From assembly GCA_018660265.1 (NCBI GenBank), contig JABJKS010000031.1:124001-188000 (forward strand): a stretch of 64,000 bases of DNA, in the 5' to 3' direction. Origin of the DNA: Rhodospirillaceae bacterium. Its GTDB lineage: Bacteria; Pseudomonadota; Alphaproteobacteria; GCA-2731375. The notes beneath the pieces were generated by a model. It was not told the DNA's origin. It saw only the letters and a program-made list of their open reading frames with translations, and did no database searches. The position numbers and the translations under genes are program-made. Below are positions 7,808 through 22,677 of the stretch, one piece after another (position 1 is the first letter of the stretch; the number at the start of each line of letters is the position of its first letter).

Positions 7808-9094
7808 ATGACCGTAAAAAAAAGCAATACTGATGCAGGTGGCGCATCGCTGAAGATGAGCCGTCGGAAATTCATGGGGACGGCGGCCAGCGTGGCTGCA
7901 GCAGGTAGCATCACCGGCTTCCCAAACATTGTGCAGGCGGCTGATCCCCTTCGGACCATCGGCCTGGGCGTTTCCATTATCAATGAAATTCAAGGCAAGG
8001 CGGCCAAGGATCTGGGCTTTAAGGTTCGCGGCCAGGCCTTGGGCTATGGTGCCCTGTTCGGCAAGACCCTGAACCAGAACGACCAGTATGACGTATCGGA
8101 ATGTTATTTCGATATGTTCGATGTGATGATCCCATCGGGCGTGTTTCAGGCCATCGATACCCACCGGATCAAGGATTGGGATAAGGTTTCCGACCTGACC
8201 AAGACGGGCATGCTGACACCGGGAAGCACCGTTGGACAAGGCGATGCGCCGGTGCGCCAGATTTGGGTGGACAAGGATGGCAAACGAACAAATGGCCCCT
8301 CACGCTATATCTCTGGACTGCCGGGCTGGCATAACGCAGATAGCCTCGGCTACAACCCCGATGATACCGGCCGGTCCATCGACAGCTGGGCGGAATTGTT
8401 CAGCTCCGACTTCAAGGGCCGGGTTGCTTTGTTGAATGTTCCCCAAATTGGCGCCATGGATGCAGCCATGGGCATGGAAGCCCTGGGTTTGATTAAATTC
8501 GGCGACAAAGGCAATATGACCAAGATGGAAATCGATAAGTTGATCGAGTTCCTGATTGTCAAAAAGAAGGAAGGCCATTTCCGCGCCTTCTGGGAAACCT
8601 TTGGCCAGTCCGTCAACCTGATGGTCAGTGGCGAAGTTGCCCTGCAAAGCATGTGGTCACCGGCAGTGACGGCTGTGAATGCCGAGGGCGTACCCTGCGT
8701 TTATGCGTCACCAAAAGAAGGCATGCGCGGTTGGCACGGTGCCATCGCCATTTCGAAAAAGGCCACCGGTAAGCGCCTGGACCAGGCCTATGAATATTTG
8801 AATTGGTGGATTTCCGGCTGGGCCGGTGCCTTTGTGGCCCGTCAGGGTTATTACATGTCCACGGTGGAGAATACCAAAAAGCATCTGCCGGCGGAAGAAT
8901 GGGACTTCTGGTATGAAGGTAAGCCTGCGGCCAAGGAACTGCCCGATCCGTTCGGCAGCCCGCTGATCAATAAAGGTCAGGTGCGTGATGGCGGCTCGTA
9001 CGAGCAACGGTTTAAGAAGATCGCTGTTTGGAACTCCGTTATGACTGAAAATGATTATCTGGTGAAACGTTGGACGGAATTCCTGACCGCCTAG
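7808..9094 (+). CDS. Tat-exported extracellular substrate-binding protein, spermidine/putrescine (PotD) type
   Basis: A 428-residue periplasmic binding protein of the PotD/PotF-like family. The N-terminus carries a twin-arginine motif, SRRKFM (18-23), followed by a hydrophobic Ala/Gly-rich segment and a likely cleavage site after VQAA, so folded export by Tat is inferred. The mature protein should capture the ligand for the two permeases that follow. The start has GGGAGG seven bases upstream. Association with hydantoinase and amine-oxidase-like genes suggests a cationic or cyclic amide ligand rather than a polyamine itself. Confidence 0.9.
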   Translation: MTVKKSNTDAGGASLKMSRRKFMGTAASVAAAGSITGFPNIVQAADPLRTIGLGVSIINEIQGKAAKDLGFKVRGQALGYGALFGKTLNQNDQYDVSECYFDMFDVMIPSGVFQAIDTHRIKDWDKVSDLTKTGMLTPGSTVGQGDAPVRQIWVDKDGKRTNGPSRYISGLPGWHNADSLGYNPDDTGRSIDSWAELFSSDFKGRVALLNVPQIGAMDAAMGMEALGLIKFGDKGNMTKMEIDKLIEFLIVKKKEGHFRAFWETFGQSVNLMVSGEVALQSMWSPAVTAVNAEGVPCVYASPKEGMRGWHGAIAISKKATGKRLDQAYEYLNWWISGWAGAFVARQGYYMSTVENTKKHLPAEEWDFWYEGKPAAKELPDPFGSPLINKGQVRDGGSYEQRFKKIAVWNSVMTENDYLVKRWTEFLTA

Positions 9095-9249: not shown

Positions 9250-10230
9250 ATGTCAGACGTTACTAAAACCCACCATACCGGCTTGATCGGCAGCCAGCCA
9301 AAACCCATCGATGCTCTGGGCCAGGCTAAGATCGCCCATACGGAGGAAGGTTTTCCGACCATCTGGTTGATTACGCCGGCAACGATCTGGCTAATCCTGT
9401 TTTTGGTCATTCCCCTGGTATCGATCATTGTCTTCAGTTTCTGGGAAAACACCCGCGAAGGCCTATCGCCAGCGTTCTCCTTTGAATTCTATGGGGAGTA
9501 CTTCTACACCGAAGGCTTTTTTGACCCCGAAGCAGACCGTTTCCTACGCCCGTCGGTTTATATTCGTACTCTGGGGTCGACGGTCTATTTTACCCTGTTG
9601 ACCATGCTGCTGTGCTTAATCGTCGGCTACCCCATCGCCTATTTCCTGGCGATGCAGGTGCAGGCCTTTAAATGGCAGCTGGCCCTGTTTTTATTGTGCA
9701 TGGTGCCGTTCTGGACATCCTATCTGATCCGCGCCGTGGCCTGGTTGCCCATGTTGGGGCGACGCGGCCTGATCAATCAGGCGCTATTGGGCATGGGCAT
9801 CGTGGATAAACCGGTCAGTTTTCTGTTCTATTCGGAATTCGGTTATACCCTGGCCCTGGTGCAAATCTATGTGGTGTTGGGTATCGGCCCCATATTCTTT
9901 TCCCTGGCCAAGATCGACAAAGCCATATTGGAAGCCGCCCTGGATATGGGGGCCACGCCGTTTCAGATATTTCGCGAGATTATTGGCCCGATGTCCCTGC
10001 CGGGGGTGGCCATTGGCATGATCTTCATATTCGTCATGATCATGGGTGAATTCGCCACTGCCGTGGTGGTCTATGGCGGCAAGACCTCTACCGCCGGGAC
10101 GGTAATCCTGAACTATTACGGCATCGCAAACTATCCATTTGCCGCCGTGAATGCGTTGATGTTGATGTTGGCCATGGTGATCGGCATCATAATCATCCTG
10201 CGCGTCGTCGATATCCGAAAAGAGTTGTAG
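9250..10230 (+). CDS. ABC transporter permease, PotB type
   Basis: Inner-membrane permease of 326 residues with about six transmembrane helices after a 50-residue hydrophilic N-terminus. The ATPase-coupling EAA loop is present (EAALDMGATPFQIFREIIGP), matching the polyamine/opine/iron subfamily of binding-protein-dependent permeases. It should form a heterodimer with the next permease and use the ATPase encoded on the opposite strand at 12385-13497. The downstream permease starts 2 bases after its stop. Confidence 0.92.
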   Translation: MSDVTKTHHTGLIGSQPKPIDALGQAKIAHTEEGFPTIWLITPATIWLILFLVIPLVSIIVFSFWENTREGLSPAFSFEFYGEYFYTEGFFDPEADRFLRPSVYIRTLGSTVYFTLLTMLLCLIVGYPIAYFLAMQVQAFKWQLALFLLCMVPFWTSYLIRAVAWLPMLGRRGLINQALLGMGIVDKPVSFLFYSEFGYTLALVQIYVVLGIGPIFFSLAKIDKAILEAALDMGATPFQIFREIIGPMSLPGVAIGMIFIFVMIMGEFATAVVVYGGKTSTAGTVILNYYGIANYPFAAVNALMLMLAMVIGIIIILRVVDIRKEL

Positions 10231-10231
10231 C

Positions 10232-11059
10232 ATGGCCCGCTGGACACCGGAGCGTTGGCGAAAACTGCGGGTGAAAACCGGCTTTTCCATTTATTACGTG
10301 ATCTTTCTTGTCTTCATCTATGGCCCCATGTTCGCCATGTTTGTCCTGTCATTCCAGGGCAGGCGGGGCGGCACGTCGTTCCCCATGCGGGGATACAGCC
10401 TTTATTGGTGGAACAAATTGCTGGAGCCTTCAACGGTTGGCGATATGCAGGGTGCCATGGGCCGCTCCATCATATTGGCCTTGATGGTTATGGTCATCAC
10501 GGCCTTTTTCTCAACCATGCTGGCCATGGCCTTTCGCAAGTCGTTTTGGTTCTCCAACGTCTTATTCTACACGATCCTGACCGGCCTGATGGTGCCCGGC
10601 GTCCTGCTTAGTCTGGGTATGGCGATCCTGTTGCGGCAGTTAGGCCTGCCGCCTGCCTGGTATTCATCCGGCCTGGCGGTGCATGTGATCTGGGCCCTGC
10701 CGTTCGGCTATCTGGTCATGATGGCGGTCTTCAACCGTTTCGATTCCCGACTGGAGGAGGCGGCCCGCGATATGGGTGCGAATGAATGGACCGTGTTCAA
10801 GGAAATTACCCTGCCCTTGATTACACCCGGCGTTGTGGCCGCCGGTCTGTTCGGCTTTACGTTATCGTACGATGAATTTGCCCGTACGACCTTGTTGTCC
10901 GGGGCAGAAAATACCCTGCCCCTGGATATTAATTCCTCCATGACCCAGCGTATTCGCCCGACCCTGTTTGCGCTCGGTACGGCATCGACCATATTTTCCT
11001 TAATGATGATCTCAGTCTTTTTGGGGATCTACACGATCCTCTATCGAAGATCCCGTTAG
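10232..11059 (+). CDS. ABC transporter permease, PotC type
   Basis: A 275-residue second permease subunit with about six transmembrane helices and the EAA motif EAARDMGANEWTVFKEITLP. It pairs with the PotB-type permease immediately upstream. No ATPase follows on this strand; the next gene converges from the minus strand. Confidence 0.92.
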   Translation: MARWTPERWRKLRVKTGFSIYYVIFLVFIYGPMFAMFVLSFQGRRGGTSFPMRGYSLYWWNKLLEPSTVGDMQGAMGRSIILALMVMVITAFFSTMLAMAFRKSFWFSNVLFYTILTGLMVPGVLLSLGMAILLRQLGLPPAWYSSGLAVHVIWALPFGYLVMMAVFNRFDSRLEEAARDMGANEWTVFKEITLPLITPGVVAAGLFGFTLSYDEFARTTLLSGAENTLPLDINSSMTQRIRPTLFALGTASTIFSLMMISVFLGIYTILYRRSR

Positions 11060-11073
11060 CGAGCGCGCTAGCG

Positions 11074-12378
11074 TCACACCACGCTGTGTGGTGTCAATTT
11101 GGTGCCATCGTGAAAACGGCTGAAGCGAAAGGCGTCTAGCTCCAGGGAAGGCTTGCCATTCTGGATCAGTTCAGCAACCAGGCGGCCCACAATCGGCCCC
11201 ATGCCAAAGCCGTGGCCGGAAAATCCCGTGGCCAGGATCAGACCGGCGGGTTGGTCGACTGCACCGATGGTCGGCAGCATATCGGGCGTCATGTCGATAT
11301 AACCGGCCCAACTGCGCTCAACCGTTACATCCTTCGTTTCCGGCAGCAGACGGTGCAGGGTTTGCAGGGTTTCGTGCACAACCTTCATATTCGGGGCCGG
11401 ATCCAGAATGCGATAGGTGGTCAACTCCCGCGCCAGGGCCGCTCTCGAGAAACTGCCCCGAAACAAGTCTAACGACAGACGGTTCAGGTGCAGCTTAATA
11501 TCCCGGCGGTTGGAGGCAAAACTGCCCAAAAACGAGGGCAGGTTCAGGATGCTGTCGATGGTCAGGTCATGATCGGCGGAACGCTGGGCAATATTGAAAG
11601 AACCATCCCGGCGCTGGCGAAAGGCGACCCCGGTCCAGGTCGCCGTATGCGAAACAATGGGTCCGGGCGTTGTCCGCGCGACGGTGCCTTTGATCCACAT
11701 TTGTGGCAGCTTCAAACCCAGGCCGCGCAACATTCGACCTGACCATGCGCCCGCCGCACAGACAACCACGGGCGTGCGGATGGTGCCATGTTCCGTCACG
11801 ACGCCGGATACCGCACCGGCGGTTCTCTCCACCTCAAAGACGGCACAGTTGGTTAAAAATTCGGCACCTCGCCCCTCGGCAGCGCGGGCCAGGGCGGCGG
11901 TGACCTTGGTGGGCTCCGCCTGGCCATCGCTTTCCGTTAGAATGGCACCCTGGCAATCCAGGGCGTGGCCGGGGATCATGGCATCCAGTTCGCCGCGGCT
12001 GAGAATTTTTGCAGACAGGCCATAACCAGCCGCCAATTGCCGCCAGTCTTCCCAACCTGCGGCTTCTTCATCGTTGGCGAAGGTGACCATATTGCCTGCC
12101 GATAGCCACTCCAGATCGGCGTTTAATTCCCGCTCCAACCCAGCCCAGATCTTGTTGGCTTCCATCATCAGGGGGATTTCCGCCGGGTCGCGGCCCTGTT
12201 GGCGGACGAAGCCCCAATTGCGGCTGGATTGTTCCCCGGCGATCACGCCCTTTTCGCAGACCACCACCTTTGCGCCGCCTTTGGCCAGGTAATAGGCCGT
12301 CGCCGTACCTGCGATGCCGGCCCCAATGATGACAACGTCCGCGGTTCTGTCTGAAGATGCGCGCTTCGTTGGGGTCAT
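11074..12378 (-). CDS. FAD-dependent oxidoreductase, DAO (D-amino acid oxidase/GlyOx) superfamily
   Basis: A 434-residue flavoenzyme. The N-terminal Rossmann motif VVIIGAGIAGTATAYYLAKG binds the ADP part of FAD, with the acidic residue of CEKG after the second strand. The pattern EQSSRNWGFVRQQ resembles the flavin-contact region of amine/glycine-type oxidases, and the C-terminal ATGFSGHGFGMGP is the conserved second FAD motif. It probably deaminates or demethylates an amine or amino acid derived from the imported compound. It starts 6 bases after the ABC ATPase stop and is the last gene of the five-gene minus-strand set. Confidence 0.9.
   Translation of the reverse strand: MTPTKRASSDRTADVVIIGAGIAGTATAYYLAKGGAKVVVCEKGVIAGEQSSRNWGFVRQQGRDPAEIPLMMEANKIWAGLERELNADLEWLSAGNMVTFANDEEAAGWEDWRQLAAGYGLSAKILSRGELDAMIPGHALDCQGAILTESDGQAEPTKVTAALARAAEGRGAEFLTNCAVFEVERTAGAVSGVVTEHGTIRTPVVVCAAGAWSGRMLRGLGLKLPQMWIKGTVARTTPGPIVSHTATWTGVAFRQRRDGSFNIAQRSADHDLTIDSILNLPSFLGSFASNRRDIKLHLNRLSLDLFRGSFSRAALARELTTYRILDPAPNMKVVHETLQTLHRLLPETKDVTVERSWAGYIDMTPDMLPTIGAVDQPAGLILATGFSGHGFGMGPIVGRLVAELIQNGKPSLELDAFRFSRFHDGTKLTPHSVV
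11076..11094. terminator. Hairpin between convergent genes, possible bidirectional terminator
   Basis: ACACCAC (11076-11082) and GTGGTGT (11088-11094) form a 7-bp stem with loop GCTGT. It overlaps the last codons of the minus-strand oxidoreductase, just past the permease stop. No long T-run follows on either strand, so termination strength is doubtful. Confidence 0.35.
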
Positions 12379-12384
12379 GACAGA

Positions 12385-13497
12385 TTACAGATCCAGATCT
12401 TCGGGTTTGCGCGCCTCTTCCAACAACATGCCGGAATCGGCTGTAAACGAAAGGGTTTCCATTTCCCCAATCTGATATGAGGTGTCGGACAATTTTCGAT
12501 GCTGCTCCACATGCACGAAATGCCCAGGCTCTATTTCAAATACGTCCGTTTCCAGGGTGCCCAGGAATTCCGTCGCGACATAGCTGCCCCGCACCTTGTT
12601 GGCCATATCAGGATGATCGCCCGTATGCATCAAATCCGCACGAACGGAAAAATGGGCTTCCTGTCCAATGGGGACCTGGCGGATATACTCCGGCACACGG
12701 ATGTAATAAAGCTGATCGTTGGCCTGAACAAAAACCATGGAACCGCTGCGGGACTGAATGACACCCTTGAACATATTGTTGTTGCCGATGAAGTCAGCGA
12801 CAAAGCGATTGCGGGGGGTTTCGTGGATTTCCCGGCTGGTGCCGATTTGCTGCACCATGGCGTCACTCATGACGATGACCTTGTCCGCCATGGACATGGC
12901 TTCCTGTTGGGAATGGGTGACCATGATGAAGGTAATGCCGGTTTCCTGCTGGATCTTTTTCAGCTCCACCATCATGGTTTGCCGTAGATTGTAATCCAGG
13001 GCACCCAAGGGTTCGTCCAACAATAACACGGTGGGCTCTGAAATCAGGGCGCGGGCCAATGCCACACGTTGTTGCTGGCCGCCCGAAAGATCAGATGGCC
13101 GGCGCGTGGCCAGTTGATCCATGGCCACTGTCTCCAACATGTTCCAAACCTTCGCTGCGCGCTGGTCTTTGTCCATGCCGCGCATTTTCAGGCTGAATTC
13201 CACATTCTGAAAAACCGTGCGATGGGGAAACAAGGCAAAGCTTTGAAACATCATGGATGTATCGCGATGAGACGGCGGTAGGTCCGTGACATCCTTGCCG
13301 GAGATAAATATCCGGCCCGTCGTTGCCTCCTCCAACCCGCCGATCATGCGCAACAGAGTGGTCTTGCCGCAACCGGACGGGCCCAGCATGGAGACGAATT
13401 CGCCTTGTTCGATCTCCGCATTGAAGTCGATGACAGCCCGGGTATTGCCCGGAAATGTCTTGTCCACGTGCTCTATGACGACATCATATTCGGCCAT
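12385..13497 (-). CDS. ABC transporter ATP-binding protein, PotA type
   Basis: A 370-residue ATPase with Walker A GPSGCGKTT (39-47), signature LSGGQQQR (137-144), Walker B LLLDEP (158-163) and the switch histidine in VTHSQ. The C-terminal 110 residues form the TOBE-like regulatory domain of the MalK/PotA group. It is the only ATPase near the two orphan permeases at 9250-11059 and very likely energises them, although it is transcribed from the opposite strand within the hyuA-hyuB-flotillin set. Confidence 0.93.
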   Translation of the reverse strand: MAEYDVVIEHVDKTFPGNTRAVIDFNAEIEQGEFVSMLGPSGCGKTTLLRMIGGLEEATTGRIFISGKDVTDLPPSHRDTSMMFQSFALFPHRTVFQNVEFSLKMRGMDKDQRAAKVWNMLETVAMDQLATRRPSDLSGGQQQRVALARALISEPTVLLLDEPLGALDYNLRQTMMVELKKIQQETGITFIMVTHSQQEAMSMADKVIVMSDAMVQQIGTSREIHETPRNRFVADFIGNNNMFKGVIQSRSGSMVFVQANDQLYYIRVPEYIRQVPIGQEAHFSVRADLMHTGDHPDMANKVRGSYVATEFLGTLETDVFEIEPGHFVHVEQHRKLSDTSYQIGEMETLSFTADSGMLLEEARKPEDLDL

Positions 13498-13533: not shown

Positions 13534-16350
13534 TCAATCAGCCGTCTTTGCCATCGCCTGAATGATATTCCAGACACTTTCGAATGGAACTTCTTCAAAG
13601 CCGCCCCGACTGTTCAATTCCTTCATCAGGGTCAGGGTCTGGGTCAAGGTTTCATCGTCGCCTGCGGCCTCAACCAGTTTCTCCAAGGCATCCGGGAAAT
13701 TCGCTTCCCGTGCCTTTTTGCTGGTCAACGTGCGTTCGACCAAAGCGGCCAGATGCTCCGCTGCCTCGCGCAGGCCGCCTTGACCATAGGGGCGTCCGAA
13801 CAGGCCGCGCAGGCCGTTGGCGTTGAACTTCTGGCGCAAGCCTTCGGGCATGGACTGGGCGAACCCTTCCAGAACCTCACCAACACCGAAGCCCTGGCTG
13901 AACAGGCCGCGAATGGTATCGACCGTACCGTCGCCGCCGCCATACATGCGGATCTGTGCGCCTTCCAGGGCATTGCCCATGGCGCGGGCCTGATCGATAT
14001 GGACATCGCGGTCTGCCTCGATTGACAGTTTCGCCAGCTCCAGGAAGGTTGCCGCCTCGTTGTATTTCTTCAATGCTTCGGCCTTGGCTTCCATGCCCGT
14101 GGCCTCTGCCTCCAACATACGTTGGGTATTGGCAACGCGCAGGCCTTCGACCTCCATCTCGGCCCGGCCAACGGCTGCGGCCTCCCGCTCAGTCCCCTCA
14201 GCGGAGATTTTCTGTGCCTCGGACGAGGCCCGGGCCCGGATCATGGTGGCATCCGATTCCTGCTCCGCAGACAGTTTTCGCGCTTCCGATTGGGTAATCA
14301 TATGCATGCGGGTGATGGCGGCCTTGCTCTCCTCATCAATGCGGCGGATTTCGGCCAGCATTTCCGCATCGATCTGCTCAATCTCTTTGGCCCGTTCCGC
14401 ATCCGCCACCAACCGTACGGACTCGACGCGGTGTTGCGCACCTTCACGTTCCGCCGTCGTCGCCAGACGCTGAACCTCTGCCGCTTCCAGCTCCTTGGTC
14501 TTCCCAACCATGGCAATTTCCCGATTGCGTTCTTCTGTTTCCCGGGCCTGAAAACGTTGGATGTCGGCGGCTTCCCGTTCCTTGTCCTTCTCGATCAGGG
14601 CAATATCCCGGCGGCGATGTTCCAGCTCAATAACCAGGTTCTTCTCAACCTCTACGGTTTCCAGTTCCTTGGCCTTTTCGACCAGAGCAATTTCGCGATC
14701 ACGCTCTTCCTGCTCCCGGGCCAGGGTGCGGCGAATTTCTGCCCGTTCCAATTCCTCGGTCTTACCGATCAATTCAATCTCGCTGTCACGTTCGGCCTTT
14801 TGACGGGCCAGACTGCGCGCGATTTGCGCGGCATGTGTGGCCCCGCCCTGGCGGATTACGGCAGCCTCTTTCTCGATCTCAGCCTTCTCGAATGCTTCGG
14901 CCTTCCGGATTTCCTCCTGCTCCACCTCCCAGCGGCGATCCAGGATAAATCGTTGTTGCTCGCTCAACACCTTGGCCTTTTCATTGGCCACTTCCTGTTC
15001 CTGTTTGGCGGTGGCAAAACTTTCCTGACGGTCCAGCTCCAACATCTCCAGGCGTGTTTCAAGGGCCCGTTTGCGAACCGCCAGGCTGGCATCGTCGGCA
15101 GCTTGATGGCGTGCATTGCGGGCTGTTTCCTCATCCGACATAACGGCGGTGATACGGGCGATTTCAGATTGTTGGCGTTCCCGTTCTTTTTGGGACAACT
15201 CTATTTCACGTTGTTTTTCGGCTTGTTCCCGGACCAGAGTGCGATCGATTTCGGCTAATTCTGATTCCTTGGCCTTGCCAACCAATTCGATCTGCCGATC
15301 ACGCTCTGCCTTTTCCAGGGTCAGGTTACGGCTGATATTGGCCAGTTCTTCTTCCCGCGCCTTAGCGATTAATTCGATTTCCCGGTCCCGGCGTTCCTTT
15401 TCCAGGGCCAGCTCTTTTTGAATTTCGGCTGCTTCCCGCCGCTTTGCTTCTTCGGTGACGGTCAGGTCCCGGTCCGTGCGCATGCGTTCGAGGGTTTTTT
15501 CGTTGTCGATTTCCTTTTCTTCAACTCCCATGCGTTGATCCAGCACATAGATCTGTTTTTCGCCCAGTTGCTTGGCCTGTTCGTTGGCAATTTCCTTGTC
15601 TTGATTGGCACGCGCCACGGCTTCGTGACGTTCAATTTCCAACAGCTCCAACTGGGTATCCAGATCCTTCTGGCGGATGGAAACCGTGGTGCGTTTTTCC
15701 GTATCGTGAACCTTGCGCTTGGCCTCCGACGTAATCTCGGTGATGACCTTTAGGCCCTCTGCATCGAAGACGTTGTCCGTGCGGAAGAATTCCTTGCCCG
15801 ATTGTTCCAGTGTGACAATGGAAACTTCTTCGAGGACCAGACCGTTGGAGGTAAAACTTTCCGTTACGCCATTGCGAATTTCAGAGGCGAAGGCATCTCG
15901 ATTTTGATGCAATTCTTTCAGGGTCTTGGTCGCGGCATAGCTGCGCAGGGCACCGACAACCTTGGCTTCCAGCAAGTTGCGGACCTTGTCGCTGTCAAAG
16001 GTCTTCTCGCCCAAGCTACGGGAGGCGACCAACACTGCATCGTCGGTGTGACCGACATGGGTATAGAGCTCCACCACCGCATCGATGCGAATATTATCTG
16101 AGGTCAGGATCGCCTGATCGCGGGAGCGGGAGATGATTAGCTTCAAGGTTTCCAGGGATACCCAAGACACTTCATGAAACACAGGCAGGACCAGGGCACC
16201 CTTGCCCAGGCAGACCTTGGTGCCGCGAAACCCTGTGCGAATGAAGCACATATTCGACGGCGCCCGCTTATAGATCCATATGGAAATGATATAAAGGATC
16301 GCGATGACCACAATGGCCGTGATAAACAGCGCAATTCCAGCTTCAAACAT
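13534..16350 (-). CDS. Flotillin-like (SPFH/band 7) membrane protein with an expanded repeat coiled coil
   Basis: A 938-residue protein of the flotillin/YqiK type. An N-terminal membrane helix (about 7-27) precedes an SPFH/band 7 domain (about 35-205), and the rest is mainly charged helix rich in Glu, Arg, Ala and Lys. Residues 226-425 and 426-625 are two copies of a 200-residue module in exact register. Each consists of an 84-residue block plus four 29-residue units (units begin at 310, 339, 368, 397 and at 510, 539, 568, 597; the one at 397 is degenerate). Common bacterial flotillins are roughly 500-600 residues, so this one is much enlarged. The C-terminal part (about 800-938) contains GGGDGTVDTIRG and a globular tail. 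Flotillins scaffold membrane microdomains. Here the gene lies between hyuB and the transporter ATPase, so a role in organising this uptake/hydrolysis system is possible but inferred. Confidence 0.88.
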   Translation of the reverse strand: MFEAGIALFITAIVVIAILYIISIWIYKRAPSNMCFIRTGFRGTKVCLGKGALVLPVFHEVSWVSLETLKLIISRSRDQAILTSDNIRIDAVVELYTHVGHTDDAVLVASRSLGEKTFDSDKVRNLLEAKVVGALRSYAATKTLKELHQNRDAFASEIRNGVTESFTSNGLVLEEVSIVTLEQSGKEFFRTDNVFDAEGLKVITEITSEAKRKVHDTEKRTTVSIRQKDLDTQLELLEIERHEAVARANQDKEIANEQAKQLGEKQIYVLDQRMGVEEKEIDNEKTLERMRTDRDLTVTEEAKRREAAEIQKELALEKERRDREIELIAKAREEELANISRNLTLEKAERDRQIELVGKAKESELAEIDRTLVREQAEKQREIELSQKERERQQSEIARITAVMSDEETARNARHQAADDASLAVRKRALETRLEMLELDRQESFATAKQEQEVANEKAKVLSEQQRFILDRRWEVEQEEIRKAEAFEKAEIEKEAAVIRQGGATHAAQIARSLARQKAERDSEIELIGKTEELERAEIRRTLAREQEERDREIALVEKAKELETVEVEKNLVIELEHRRRDIALIEKDKEREAADIQRFQARETEERNREIAMVGKTKELEAAEVQRLATTAEREGAQHRVESVRLVADAERAKEIEQIDAEMLAEIRRIDEESKAAITRMHMITQSEARKLSAEQESDATMIRARASSEAQKISAEGTEREAAAVGRAEMEVEGLRVANTQRMLEAEATGMEAKAEALKKYNEAATFLELAKLSIEADRDVHIDQARAMGNALEGAQIRMYGGGDGTVDTIRGLFSQGFGVGEVLEGFAQSMPEGLRQKFNANGLRGLFGRPYGQGGLREAAEHLAALVERTLTSKKAREANFPDALEKLVEAAGDDETLTQTLTLMKELNSRGGFEEVPFESVWNIIQAMAKTAD
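14476..15675 (-). repeat. Two tandem 600-bp protein-coding repeats inside the flotillin-like gene
   Basis: On the minus strand, 15675-15076 encodes residues 226-425 and 15075-14476 encodes residues 426-625. Residues 230-281 align with 430-481 without a gap at an offset of exactly 200, sharing for example LE-x-LE and ANE-x-AK-x-L. The 29-residue units share the pattern R-x-I/E-I-x-L-x-x-K-x-K/E-E and repeat with exact 29-residue spacing. Confidence 0.85.
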
Positions 16351-16436: not shown

Positions 16437-18728
16437 TTAACCCGTTCGGGTGCCACGGCGTTCACCAAAATCAAACAATGGCAACGCTTTGCGGTTTCGC
16501 CGCATGCCTTCGCGTAGATCCTCCGAGGCGCGGCGATCAACGCTCAGATCGGCGCCATTGATGCTGCCCTGCAGTACAACACCATATTCATTTCGCGCAG
16601 CTTCCGGGCTGACCAGACGGCGGGCCACATCGTTGCGGACCGCGCCAAAATCCCGCTCCAATGGATCGCCCCAGCCACCGCCACCGGCGGTGCAAAAGAC
16701 GATGCGGTCGCCGGGACGGACCCGTACGTTGTCGATTTTGGATGCAAGGGGTGATTTCTCACCATCCTTGGTGATCAACCATTTATGCGAGACGGCACCG
16801 GGCTTGCCGCCCAGAATGCCCCATGGCTGGCTGATATGGCGGTCATCATGAATAGAGACATCGCCCTCGGCCAATAGATGGTAGACCTTTTCAATACCGT
16901 TGCCGCCCCGGTGCAGGCCGGGCCCGCCCGTGTCCATGACCGAATTATAGCCTTCGATCAGCATGGGATAATAGGTTTCCAGATATTCCGCCGGTATGTT
17001 TTCAAACAGTGGCCACCAGGAATGGCCGTCCATGCCATCGCCGATGGGCCGGCCGGGAATGCCACCATAGAGAATTTCCATCAACTGAAAATCCCGACCA
17101 TCCTTATCCCGGCCCGAGAAGAGGAAATGCGGGCTGGAGCCATAGCCCGCCGCCGTTGCCAACTCCGGTGCGTGATGACTTAAAGCGCCGCCCAGGACAT
17201 CAAATTGCCGGGACAGGGTATGGGTCCGGCAGCCTAACGCGGCCGGGAAATCCGGCTGTACCAAGGATCCCTTCGGCAGGGTGACGTGGATCAGATCGTA
17301 AAAGCCGTCGTTGAACAGGATCTGCGGGTCGAACACCATGATCATGTAGACCCCGATGAACATTTTGAACATGCCCTCGTGGAGGTAAAAGTTGATGGGC
17401 CCCGGGGCCTGGGCTGCGGTGCCGGTCCAATCAAAATAGGCGTGATCGCCTTCCCGCCAGACCGTCAGCTTCATTTTGAAGGGGCCGTTGCCACAACCGT
17501 CATCGTCGACATAATCTTCAAATGATTTTGGTTCCGTCGGCAGGTTTTGCACGATCAGGCTGCGCATGGCGCGCTCTGTCCGTTCCAGCAGGGCGTCGCA
17601 GGCATCGGCATAGGTATCGGCACCAAAGCGTTCGCACAGTTCGATGATCCGTTTCTCGCCGGCCCGGCAGCCAGCCAATATAGCCATCAAATCGGAATAG
17701 TTCATTTCCGGCGTGCGGGTGTTGGTCATGATTAGGTCGAGGGCCGCCTGGTTCAGAACCCCGCCCTCGTACAGCTTGATCGGCGGTATGCGCAGGCCCT
17801 CGCCAAAGATAGAGGTTGCCGCCGTGGGCATGGAGCCCGGTACCGGCCCGCCGACATCCATCATATGCCCGAACATGGAAGTAAAGCCCACCAGCCCGCC
17901 TTGGAAAAACACCGGGACCAGGATGATCCAGTCGTTGATATGACTGATGGCACCGCCGCACATGAAGGGATCGCTTTGCAGGATGACATCGCCTGGTTCC
18001 AGGTCGAAATTCTTCATCTTCAGCATTTCCGGCACGTAGGAACCGAATTGCCCGACAATCATCCGCCCCTTGGGGTCCGTGATCATGGGATATTCATCAT
18101 GCTGTTCCCGGATCACCGGCGACATGGCGGAGCGGAACAAAACCGCATCCATTTCGTGGCGCGCGTTGCGCAGGGCATTCTCGATCAAATCCAGGGTGAC
18201 GATGTCCAGCTTGCCGCCTGACACAGCCGCCTGTGTTGCGACGGTTTGGGGCTGGCCCGGTGCTGGGCTTTGTCGGCTGGGTGAAGGTGCTGCATCGGTC
18301 GGCGCCGGCAGGTCCGCATCCGCGAACATATCGGCGCATTTGGCCAGGGCGTTATCGGCGGCCCGCTGTAGGGCCTTGCCCGTATCCCCATTGGCCCGGG
18401 CACTGCCGAACTGCATTTTCGAGACACCATCGACCACCAACTTGCACAGGACGGAAACGCTGCCCCGTTCGTTGGAATGCTCCATAATTTCCGATGACCA
18501 GCGGCTGCCAAAGCGGGCATTCAAGTGCGCCGTTACATCATCCGCTGTCGTCTCGCTGCTGGCCATGCCGGCGGATTGCAGATCGGCCGCCGTGGCGGGG
18601 CGGTGATCTACCGACAGCAGGCCGCTGGCCTGCATCTGGTTGGAGAAGACTTTGTCGAATTGCGCCTTGTTGGCCTTCAACAAATCATCCAGGGACATAC
18701 GTCCACGATCCGGGTTCTGGTCATTCAT
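16437..18728 (-). CDS. hyuB: Hydantoinase B / oxoprolinase family protein with an N-terminal extension
   Basis: A 763-residue HyuB-type subunit. The HyuB core begins near residue 173 (LDIVTLDLIENALRNARHEM) and runs to the C-terminus with the family motifs YPMITDPKG, DVILQSDPF and TAGGGGWGDP. With HyuA it is expected to drive ATP-dependent opening of a hydantoin or oxoproline-like ring, or a related carboxylase reaction. The preceding 172 residues are not part of the usual family. Residues about 60-135 show a compact alpha/beta pattern with FGSRWSSEIMEH and FGSARANGDTGKALQRAA, followed by a Pro/Ala-rich linker (about 139-165). hyuA lies 15 bases upstream. The substrate cannot be read from sequence. 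Confidence 0.92.
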   Translation of the reverse strand: MNDQNPDRGRMSLDDLLKANKAQFDKVFSNQMQASGLLSVDHRPATAADLQSAGMASSETTADDVTAHLNARFGSRWSSEIMEHSNERGSVSVLCKLVVDGVSKMQFGSARANGDTGKALQRAADNALAKCADMFADADLPAPTDAAPSPSRQSPAPGQPQTVATQAAVSGGKLDIVTLDLIENALRNARHEMDAVLFRSAMSPVIREQHDEYPMITDPKGRMIVGQFGSYVPEMLKMKNFDLEPGDVILQSDPFMCGGAISHINDWIILVPVFFQGGLVGFTSMFGHMMDVGGPVPGSMPTAATSIFGEGLRIPPIKLYEGGVLNQAALDLIMTNTRTPEMNYSDLMAILAGCRAGEKRIIELCERFGADTYADACDALLERTERAMRSLIVQNLPTEPKSFEDYVDDDGCGNGPFKMKLTVWREGDHAYFDWTGTAAQAPGPINFYLHEGMFKMFIGVYMIMVFDPQILFNDGFYDLIHVTLPKGSLVQPDFPAALGCRTHTLSRQFDVLGGALSHHAPELATAAGYGSSPHFLFSGRDKDGRDFQLMEILYGGIPGRPIGDGMDGHSWWPLFENIPAEYLETYYPMLIEGYNSVMDTGGPGLHRGGNGIEKVYHLLAEGDVSIHDDRHISQPWGILGGKPGAVSHKWLITKDGEKSPLASKIDNVRVRPGDRIVFCTAGGGGWGDPLERDFGAVRNDVARRLVSPEAARNEYGVVLQGSINGADLSVDRRASEDLREGMRRNRKALPLFDFGERRGTRTG

Positions 18729-18743
18729 AATTTTTCCTCACCC

Positions 18744-20828
18744 CTATGCATGGGTGCCCCCGGACAGGCCTTCGGAAATGCCTTCGGGAGAAATCAAAAT
18801 ATTCAGATAACGATCCACAACGCCCACATGGCCCGGATGAATAACCGTGGTCGTGTCCGCCTGGGTCACCACCGCAGGGCCCACCAGACGTTGGCCGGCG
18901 CGCAGCAATTTGCGGTCATAAATGTTGGCGTTCAAAAAGCCGCCGTCGAAATAGACCCGGTGTTGTTCGACCACCGCGGCTGATGCGTCCGGCCCCTCCA
19001 ACTCAAAATCAGGCAGGCTGATTTTTTCCACCTGGCCGGAACCCACCGCGCGCAGATTGACCAATTCCACCGGTTGTTCCAGGCGGAAGCCGTATAGCCG
19101 TTCATGCGCCTCGCCAAAGCGCGCTTCCAGATCCGCCAGGCCGCCGCCATTACCCAAACTTTCGGGATTGACCTGCAGAGCGAATTCATAGCCCTGGCGG
19201 AAATAGCGTACATCGGCCTGGAATTTGATCTCCTGGACCTGTTCGTCAATGCCTTCTTCCCGCAACCAGCCGCGGGCATCCCGGCCCAGGCGTTCATAAA
19301 TGGCACTTAACTGATTGCCGTCCACGTCGCCGATATTGCGCACGAAGGTTTGTGCGAATTCGTTTTTCACATCGGAATATAAAAAGCCCAGGGCCGATAG
19401 AACGCCCGGCGTCGGTGGCACGATGACCGGATAACAATTGCCCAGAATGGCCATGGCGTTGCCGTGCAGGGGCCCCGCACCGCCAAAGGCAACCAGGGCG
19501 AAGTCACGGGGATCCAGGCCTTTTTGCACACTGACCAGGCGCAGGGCCCCGAACATGTTTTCGTTGACGATATCCAGAATGCCTTGGGCCGCCTGATACA
19601 GATCCAAGCCAAGAGACCGCGCGACTTTGCCCACCGCATCTTCCGCTGCTTTGAGGTCCAGGTTCATCTGGCCATCCAGCAATCGCGGTGGCAGACGCCC
19701 CAGCAACAGGTTGGCATCCGTGACGGTCGGCTGCTCTCCGCCGCGCCCATAACAGGCCGGCCCAGGTGCGGCACCGGCACTTTCCGGGCCCACCCGCAAG
19801 GCACCGGTCATGGGCACATGGGCGATGGAACCGCCGCCCGCGCCGACCGAATGAACCTCAACCGAGGGCACCTTGATAGGGTAATAACCCAGGGAGGTCT
19901 GGCGCGAGATCAAAGGTTCGCCATTCTGGATCAACGAGACATCCGTGGATGTCCCACCCATATCAAACCCCAGGGCGTCATTATAACCGGCCAGCGACGC
20001 CAGGAACGCCGCGCCCGAAACACCACCCGCGGGCCCCGACAGCATGGTATGGACCGGCGATTGCGAGGCGCGCTCCACAGACATCAAGCCGCCATCGGAC
20101 CGGACGATATTTACATGCGGTGAAAACTGAATTGTCTTCAGCTTATCTTCAAAATTCGCCAGATAGCGGCGCATGGCCGGGCCCACATAGGCATTCATGA
20201 CCGTGACCAGGGTGCGTTCGTACTCACGAAATTCCGGTAGAATGTCTGACGACAATGAAATGGGGACGTCGGTTCCGGCTTCCTCAATAATCGTGCGCAG
20301 GCGACGTTCGTGATCTGGGTTGGCGTAGGAATGCAGCAGAGAAACGGTAATGGATTCAACGCCTGCGTCGATTAATTCCCGCACCGCTTGTCGGGCCGCA
20401 ACTTCATCCAGCGGCGTCAGTACCTCGCCATGGGAATTTACCCGTTCGGTGATGCCGCGGGTCAACTCCAGATCCGCCAACGGATCCGGTTTTTCCATGA
20501 TCATCCAACCGGCCAGAGGACCTGGTGTTTGACTGCGGGCGAGGTGGAGGACCTGTTCAAAATCCTTGGTCACCAGCAGGCCGACCTTGGCGCCCTTTTC
20601 CTCCAACACAATATTGGTAGAGACCGTGGTGCCATGCAAAAGAGAATTGATCTCCGACGGGCTGATCCCCGTCTCGGCCACCAATTGGGAAATACCGTTC
20701 ATGATGCCGATGGATTGGTCCTGGGGCGTCGAGGGGGTTTTCAGCAGGCGCAATTCGCTGTTCTGTTCATTGAACAGCAACAAATCGGTGAAAGTTCCAC
20801 CGACATCCACGCCCAACCGACTGCCCAT
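18744..20828 (-). CDS. hyuA: Hydantoinase A / oxoprolinase family protein
   Basis: A 694-residue HyuA-type ATP-binding subunit with the actin/ASKHA nucleotide motif GVDVGGTFTDLLLF at the N-terminus, LLHGTTVSTN, and GFDMGGTSTDVSL in the middle. HyuA and HyuB together catalyse ATP-dependent hydrolysis of cyclic amides such as N-methylhydantoin or 5-oxoproline. It is the first gene of the minus-strand set hyuA-hyuB-flotillin-ATPase-oxidoreductase, with intergenic gaps of 15, 86, 36 and 6 bases. It diverges from a luciferase-like oxidoreductase across a 308-base regulatory gap. Confidence 0.93.
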   Translation of the reverse strand: MGSRLGVDVGGTFTDLLLFNEQNSELRLLKTPSTPQDQSIGIMNGISQLVAETGISPSEINSLLHGTTVSTNIVLEEKGAKVGLLVTKDFEQVLHLARSQTPGPLAGWMIMEKPDPLADLELTRGITERVNSHGEVLTPLDEVAARQAVRELIDAGVESITVSLLHSYANPDHERRLRTIIEEAGTDVPISLSSDILPEFREYERTLVTVMNAYVGPAMRRYLANFEDKLKTIQFSPHVNIVRSDGGLMSVERASQSPVHTMLSGPAGGVSGAAFLASLAGYNDALGFDMGGTSTDVSLIQNGEPLISRQTSLGYYPIKVPSVEVHSVGAGGGSIAHVPMTGALRVGPESAGAAPGPACYGRGGEQPTVTDANLLLGRLPPRLLDGQMNLDLKAAEDAVGKVARSLGLDLYQAAQGILDIVNENMFGALRLVSVQKGLDPRDFALVAFGGAGPLHGNAMAILGNCYPVIVPPTPGVLSALGFLYSDVKNEFAQTFVRNIGDVDGNQLSAIYERLGRDARGWLREEGIDEQVQEIKFQADVRYFRQGYEFALQVNPESLGNGGGLADLEARFGEAHERLYGFRLEQPVELVNLRAVGSGQVEKISLPDFELEGPDASAAVVEQHRVYFDGGFLNANIYDRKLLRAGQRLVGPAVVTQADTTTVIHPGHVGVVDRYLNILISPEGISEGLSGGTHA

Positions 20829-22060: not shown

Positions 22061-22158
22061 TGAGACCCGAAGAACGGTTCTTTTGACAAAGCCTTCGTTT
22101 GGGGTACCATCCCGTTTAGTTACGCAGTGTTGAAATTTGAAGGGCGCGGTTGGGGCAT

Positions 22159-22677
22159 ATGGCTGAAGAAACGACGGGGCAGCGGCACAAATTCTGGATT
22201 GGCTTGATCGCTTTGATCATCTTGCTGATTTTCCTGTATTTTTATAAGCCGTTTGAAATCTATCTGCTGGCCCATATCCCTCAGATCCATTTTTCCAATG
22301 TGATTTTCTGGTTCGCCTCCCTGGTCGGCATTGTCGGCTACGTGATCGCGCACTGGCAGAGTTTCCGCAGTCAATTCGGTCGCGATAGCAGCGGTCTGAA
22401 TGTAGAGGTTCTGGTCTTTGACAGCTTGCAGGTCTCTATTTTGGTCGCGGTTATTTTCTGCGCCGGGGGGACTTTGCAATCGGTCGCCATGTTGGGGGAG
22501 CATCTGGTCAATCGCGGTGCCATCGTCGGTTCGGGCTTTGGCGAAAAGCTGTTGGCGATCATCCTGATGGTGATAATGGCTATTCTTTTCTATCTATTGC
22601 ACCACATGGTCCGGGCCTTTCGTGACGGTTGGACCACCCGCCGCCCGCCGGGCGGGCGCTCTTCTTTAGTAGACTAG
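22159..22677 (+). CDS. Hypothetical four-helix membrane protein
   Basis: A 172-residue protein with about four transmembrane helices (near 12-31, 46-65, 86-110 and 125-150) and a basic, Pro-rich C-terminus. No family is recognised. The ATG at 22159 is chosen over an in-frame TTG three codons earlier, because GGGG precedes it closely and the hydrophilic leader MAEETTGQRHK suits a membrane protein. It is followed within 6 bases by the CmcJ-like gene and may be co-transcribed with it. Confidence 0.7.
   Translation: MAEETTGQRHKFWIGLIALIILLIFLYFYKPFEIYLLAHIPQIHFSNVIFWFASLVGIVGYVIAHWQSFRSQFGRDSSGLNVEVLVFDSLQVSILVAVIFCAGGTLQSVAMLGEHLVNRGAIVGSGFGEKLLAIILMVIMAILFYLLHHMVRAFRDGWTTRRPPGGRSSLVD

Follow-up and report, generated by a model that had tools for sequence, protein, structure and literature searches.

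The window, by which we mean the whole stretch of 64,000 nucleotides from a Rhodospirillaceae bacterium (contig JABJKS010000031.1, positions 124,001 to 188,000), carries a flotillin gene within a cluster of importer and hydantoinase genes (Table 1). The gene encodes a real flotillin-type SPFH protein. Its SPFH (Band 7) domain was assigned to Pfam PF01145 with 51.1 bits at a cut-off of 23.6, and the only solved structures matched by a profile of the family were flotillin-1 and flotillin-2 chains, with no stomatin, prohibitin or HflK/C among them. The original prediction, made from the letters alone, was right in position and in calling the product a flotillin; the coding strand is the minus strand and the product has 938 residues. 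In common with the human flotillin-1/2 cage (PDB 9bq2, 9l3g; PMC11260169), the protein has an SPFH domain, a predicted long charged helix and a putative cap region (profile E = 3e-6). The positively charged stretch behind the membrane segment suggests that the body of the protein is cytoplasmic. The FloT equivalog NF058507 was ruled out as its identity, the match being weak (26.5 bits, E = 3e-6, residues 43-305) and below the curated cut-off of 700.

Table 1. Features of the flotillin locus (positions within the window; residues refer to the encoded flotillin)
Feature	Position	Strand	Basis
Giant flotillin (SPFH2-type), 938 aa	13534..16350	-	ORF start at 16350; Pfam Band_7 2.2e-13; profile matches solved flotillin-1
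Single N-terminal membrane segment, residues 6-24, then KR; putative cytoplasmic orientation	16279..16335	-	Hydropathy scan
SPFH / Band 7 domain, residues 43-180	15811..16224	-	Pfam
Predicted continuous helical wall, residues ~193-748, proline-free	14107..15774	-	Composition; ends placed by eye from conserved flotillin motifs
Block A, residues 226-425	15076..15675	-	Self-alignment, offset 200
Block B, residues 426-625	14476..15075	-	Self-alignment, offset 200
Three 29-residue units of block A (residues 310, 339, 368 to 396)	15163..15423	-	Unit matrix, held-out 35-43 bits
Four 29-residue units of block B (residues 510, 539, 568, 597 to 625)	14476..14823	-	Unit matrix, held-out 30-55 bits
Conserved cap region and strand, residues 749-805; probable equivalent of the flotillin cap	13936..14106	-	Conservation in orthologue alignment
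C-terminal domain, residues 806-938; most non-29-multiple indels here	13537..13935	-	Orthologue alignment
hyuB, hydantoinase B / oxoprolinase, immediately upstream of flotillin	16437..18728	-	Pfam; synteny
hyuA, hydantoinase A / oxoprolinase	18744..20828	-	Pfam; synteny
ABC transporter ATPase (PotA-like), 36 bp downstream of flotillin	12385..13497	-	Pfam; synteny
FAD-dependent oxidoreductase (DAO); here only in the window's own clade	11074..12378	-	Pfam; synteny
ABC solute-binding protein	7808..9094	+	Pfam; synteny
Two ABC permease genes (9250-10230, 10232-11059)	9250..11059	+	ORFs; synteny
175-aa protein without Pfam family; hydropathy scan predicts four membrane segments; conserved in cluster by synteny, divergent from hyuA	22150..22677	+	

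The prediction that the protein greatly exceeds the usual flotillin length holds: ordinary flotillins in this analysis have 520-621 residues. Prokaryotic giant SPFH2b proteins of 800-1000 residues with a strongly expanded coiled-coil region are described in the main text of Hinderhofer et al. 2009 (PMC2636767). The window flotillin lies in this length range and has such an expanded region, a likeness by description and not sequence by sequence. The same main text makes no mention of a repeat unit, of a length rule or of a linkage to hydantoinase or polyamine genes, and a text search of the open-licence literature found no later work on giant flotillins, although prior reports may exist elsewhere.

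The expanded region is built from repeats at two levels, as had been claimed. The best ungapped self-matches scored 415 at an offset of 29 residues (264-607) and 385 at an offset of 200 residues (210-407), compared with a maximum of 102 in 100 shuffles, and the 29-residue periodicity is far above chance. Blocks A and B align without a gap. The 200-residue duplication, originally called exact, is exact in its spacing but not in its sequence, with 79 of 200 residues identical and 56% identity at the DNA level. Since the blocks have diverged this far in DNA and Tandem Repeats Finder detected no tandem array in the gene, the expansion must be old. For the smaller repeat we used a position-specific matrix of the 29-residue unit (consensus IRRALAREQEERDREIALIAKERELERAE) with the composition of the wall itself as background. 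Seven clear units were recognised, with held-out scores of 30-55 bits compared with a mean of -62 elsewhere in the wall. The fourth slot of block A (397-425) was not recognisable as a unit with this matrix, and neither of the 84-residue heads gave a unit score, except for a degenerate pre-unit at residues 281 and 481. The proposed composition of each block from an 84-residue segment and four units (84 + 4x29 = 200) therefore holds as an arithmetic of lengths, but only three units are present in A and four in B, and the heads are not made of 29-mers. Each block is better described as a head followed by a pre-unit that has degenerated, then three or four clear units, and finally a diverged remainder.

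The comparison with orthologues revealed a length rule based on this unit. A scan of named genomes yielded 39 loci from Alphaproteobacteria, Gammaproteobacteria and SAR324, mostly in metagenome assemblies, and searches in genomes of the same class added more. Full-length orthologues have 852-854, 935-944 or 965 residues. Measured without alignment, from the motif EKRTTVSIRQ to GRAE in 38 proteins, the distance takes only the values 423, 481, 510 and 539, all of which are equal modulo 29. In an alignment with the window protein, all indels between the anchors comprise 29, 58 or 87 residues. Not one indel of another size was found there in the 38 orthologues, at identities to the window protein down to ~60%; truncated loci aside, the other indels are N-terminal differences of 1-4 residues or lie in the C-terminal domain. 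Ordinary-length homologues without the repeat were absent among the orthologues, all of which carry it; the repeat-less flotillins of ordinary length belong to other subfamilies.

The unit-level expansion that had been deduced from a single protein can thus be seen directly, as orthologues differ in the number of units. Counted in blocks A and B, these numbers are three and four in the 938-residue form, three and five in the 965-residue form, three and three in locus L049, two and two in the alphaproteobacterial 852 class, and three and one in the gammaproteobacterial 854 class. The 113 residues from the last A unit to the pre-unit of B are constant in every class examined. A tree built without the repeats requires at least four length changes, and because the two groups with an anchor distance of 423 residues lack different units (two and two versus three and one), at least five unit-sized events must have occurred. 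In the 539-residue form (L045 and L051), the extra unit matches the adjacent unit at 96-98% DNA identity and is a recent 87-bp tandem duplication, whereas older units share only ~60-67% DNA identity with one another. Unit turnover is both ancient and active. The gene as a whole is under strong purifying selection, with a dN/dS of ~0.03-0.08 that is to be read as rough, since synonymous sites are near saturation. The 29-residue length rule appears to be new, the giant flotillins themselves having been known since 2009.

Flotillins of 520-621 residues from the same classes have no 29-residue array; in most of them the period is 11 residues. Of 45 flotillins (non-giant and 44-unit forms among L016-L155), 36 have a wall length, measured from one conserved anchor to another, of 5 modulo 11, and the exceptions are offset by combinations of 11s and 7s, apart from one shift of 4. 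None of 5000 randomised sets fitted 3.66 residues per turn as well as the distinct wall lengths did; the anchor motifs for this rule were picked after viewing the sequences, which are not an independent sample. The rule offers an evolutionary estimate of wall geometry that does not depend on a bacterial structure. We also detected a second class of giants with 967, 1121 and 1155 residues and smaller members of 681-690 residues, whose 44-residue units correspond to four hendecads. As an observation of its own, three flotillins of 662-678 residues (L112, L125 and L134) contain one 106-residue internal duplication each.

These classes bear on the original idea that a 29-residue period fits a mixed heptad/hendecad coiled coil with little supercoil. 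The unit can indeed be read as 7+11+11, and the lengths of ordinary walls stay in phase with 3.66 residues per turn. The data did not, however, reveal a classical amphipathic coiled coil. Hydrophobic residues in the 938-residue class peak at a period of 3.64, below the 99% level of permutations, with a power of 0.41 at 3.5, and no Fourier peak of hydrophobic, acidic, basic or A/G residues rose above permuted controls. Amphipathicity was consequently dropped as evidence, and a significant hydrophobic periodicity of 3.5 residues, as in a classical heptad coiled coil, was not found. Flotillin walls are reported to have no classical heptads and to be stabilised by charge contacts (PMC11260169), in line with this result. 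Little supercoil as the reason for the length did not survive: longer walls, with 822-833 residues between the anchors, use pure hendecad units of 44 residues, and we rejected the notion that 29-residue units are required for very long straight walls. It rather seems that flotillin walls grow by phase-keeping helical modules, 29 residues being one solution.

The wall of the window flotillin is predicted to be helical, from homology to solved flotillins and from the lack of proline. Residues 205-750 contain 20% glutamate and 14% alanine, and proline is absent from residue 57 to residue 834. Together with the low dN/dS, the lack of proline is consistent with a constrained continuous helix. The wall of ~555 residues (193-748, with motifs matched by eye) is about three times as long as that of human flotillin, which has 186 residues, belongs to a cage of 22 nm height and forms a single-layered barrel of 44 helices; walls of 44 to 189 residues have been reported for SPFH proteins (PMC11260169). 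By calculation, 555 residues measure ~83 nm as one straight helix, and a single unit adds at most ~4.3 nm in height. If the helices were tilted as in the human wall, the cage would be ~55-85 nm high. The natural series of walls in steps of 29 residues represents a ready-made set of forms in which the dependence of cage height on wall length, and the ability of each length to assemble, can be examined.

Flotillin cages form large, sealed barrels of debated function. For the giant form we favour, with somewhat better than even confidence, the reading that its wall was lengthened by tandem duplication and that the helices serve as phase-keeping staves of a cage which organises or encloses the importer and HyuA/HyuB. 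Duplication of 29-residue units and of the ~200-residue block would have come first, followed by gain and loss of single units. The protein would be anchored by its one N-terminal membrane helix and the SPFH domain, and, by homology with solved flotillins, many copies may line up as staves of a closed cage that stands on the inner membrane on its cytoplasmic side. Because each wall helix would have to match its neighbours on either side, only insertions that preserve the phase would be tolerated (29 residues being eight turns of 3.625), and the height of the cage would change in fixed steps of ~4 nm. Its probable role would be to organise or enclose the products of the neighbouring genes, the ABC importer and the HyuA/HyuB enzyme.

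The steps of 29 residues might instead be a mutational by-product of unequal recombination, with a number of units that has no functional meaning. Exchange between repeats always produces whole units and also removes them, and for this reason the 29-residue rule alone is no proof of selection on phase; the recent duplication in L045 and L051 is just such an event, and unit numbers vary between lineages with no obvious pattern. However, at the low DNA identity of the older units such exchange should be rare. The lack of any other indel between the anchors, even in the most distant orthologues, and the 11-residue rule in flotillins without arrays argue for constraint. We therefore regard a purely mutational origin as unlikely.

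The second part of the favoured reading, the association of the cage with the importer and the enzyme, depends on the gene neighbourhood. In the window, the genes from hyuA through hyuB, the flotillin gene and potA to the oxidoreductase gene share one strand and are separated by 6-86 bp. The order of the small membrane protein gene, hyuA, hyuB, flotillin and potA is kept across Alphaproteobacteria, Gammaproteobacteria and SAR324, with the two permease genes (permC, permB) and the binding protein gene of this spermidine-type ABC importer divergent. By hand count, potA follows the flotillin gene in all 35 loci with enough downstream sequence, and hyuB precedes it. In several loci (L052, L053 and L063-L068), HyuA and HyuB are only ~37-45% identical to those of the window and PotA is near 70%, which looks like an in-place exchange of the enzyme pair. 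A text search of open-licence papers found no literature joining flotillin and hydantoinase. HyuB carries an N-terminal extension of ~170 residues (18207-18728) ahead of the hydantoinase B domain; a guess that this part was a known nucleic-acid domain was dropped as Pfam gave no match.

Gene order is no demonstration of physical contact, and the flotillin may merely adjoin these genes while acting as a general membrane organiser. Flotillins are usually described as scaffolds of membrane microdomains, as in PMC2636767 and PMC11222466, and the divergent hyuAB pairs indicate that partners can change. On the other hand, the gene order is retained also in the loci with these divergent pairs, and its persistence across three such groups speaks against this reading. 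Moreover, most giants of the separate 44-unit class adjoin importers as well: in seven loci (L156-L159, L172, L173 and L177) flotillins of this class stand directly behind genes for a Liv-type importer. Liv genes were found at 7 of 8 long-wall loci versus 2 of 18 short-wall loci (26 loci, Fisher p = 4e-4, with related genomes not independent of each other), which suggests that long-walled flotillins work with ABC importers and their enzymes. A role as general organiser that is indifferent to its neighbours thus appears rather doubtful to us, and the repeated association of expanded walls with importer genes allows a concrete hypothesis to be framed for the role of bacterial flotillins, which has been vague so far.

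It is quite improbable that the long coil acts instead as a tether or bridge, for instance by linking the inner membrane with some second structure or by keeping HyuAB at a distance. The SPFH domain and the flotillin-like cap region are both conserved, and those flotillin and HflK/C assemblies that have been solved form closed cages, even though a helix of this length would make a very large cage and human flotillin can contact a second membrane at its narrow end (PMC11260169).

Enclosure of the importer by the proposed cage is plausible because SPFH cages of HflK/C and stomatin enclose a membrane protease (FtsH) or transporters (AQP1, UT-B), respectively (PMC11260169, PMC12407830). These systems differ from the giant flotillin in their short walls and in their cargo, and for the window protein enclosure is suggested by gene order. 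A periodic rule of length is also known for the coiled-coil arms of SMC proteins, both natural and engineered (Buermann et al. 2017, PMC5344682). There, steps of ~91-100 residues arise from the superhelix of a two-stranded coil, whereas the flotillins compared here change in exact steps of 29 or 11 residues in what is predicted to be a single-layered barrel. As a wider and tentative proposal, which we consider possible but less than probable, bacterial flotillins may form cages of adjustable height from phase-preserving modules, 29 residues here and 44 in the separate class, the tallest of them being chambers around ABC importers and the enzymes of first processing. At the seven Liv-associated loci (L156, L157 and L158, and also the other four), the flotillin gene also lies directly behind genes of the UPF0261/TIM-barrel type, which were named by eye.
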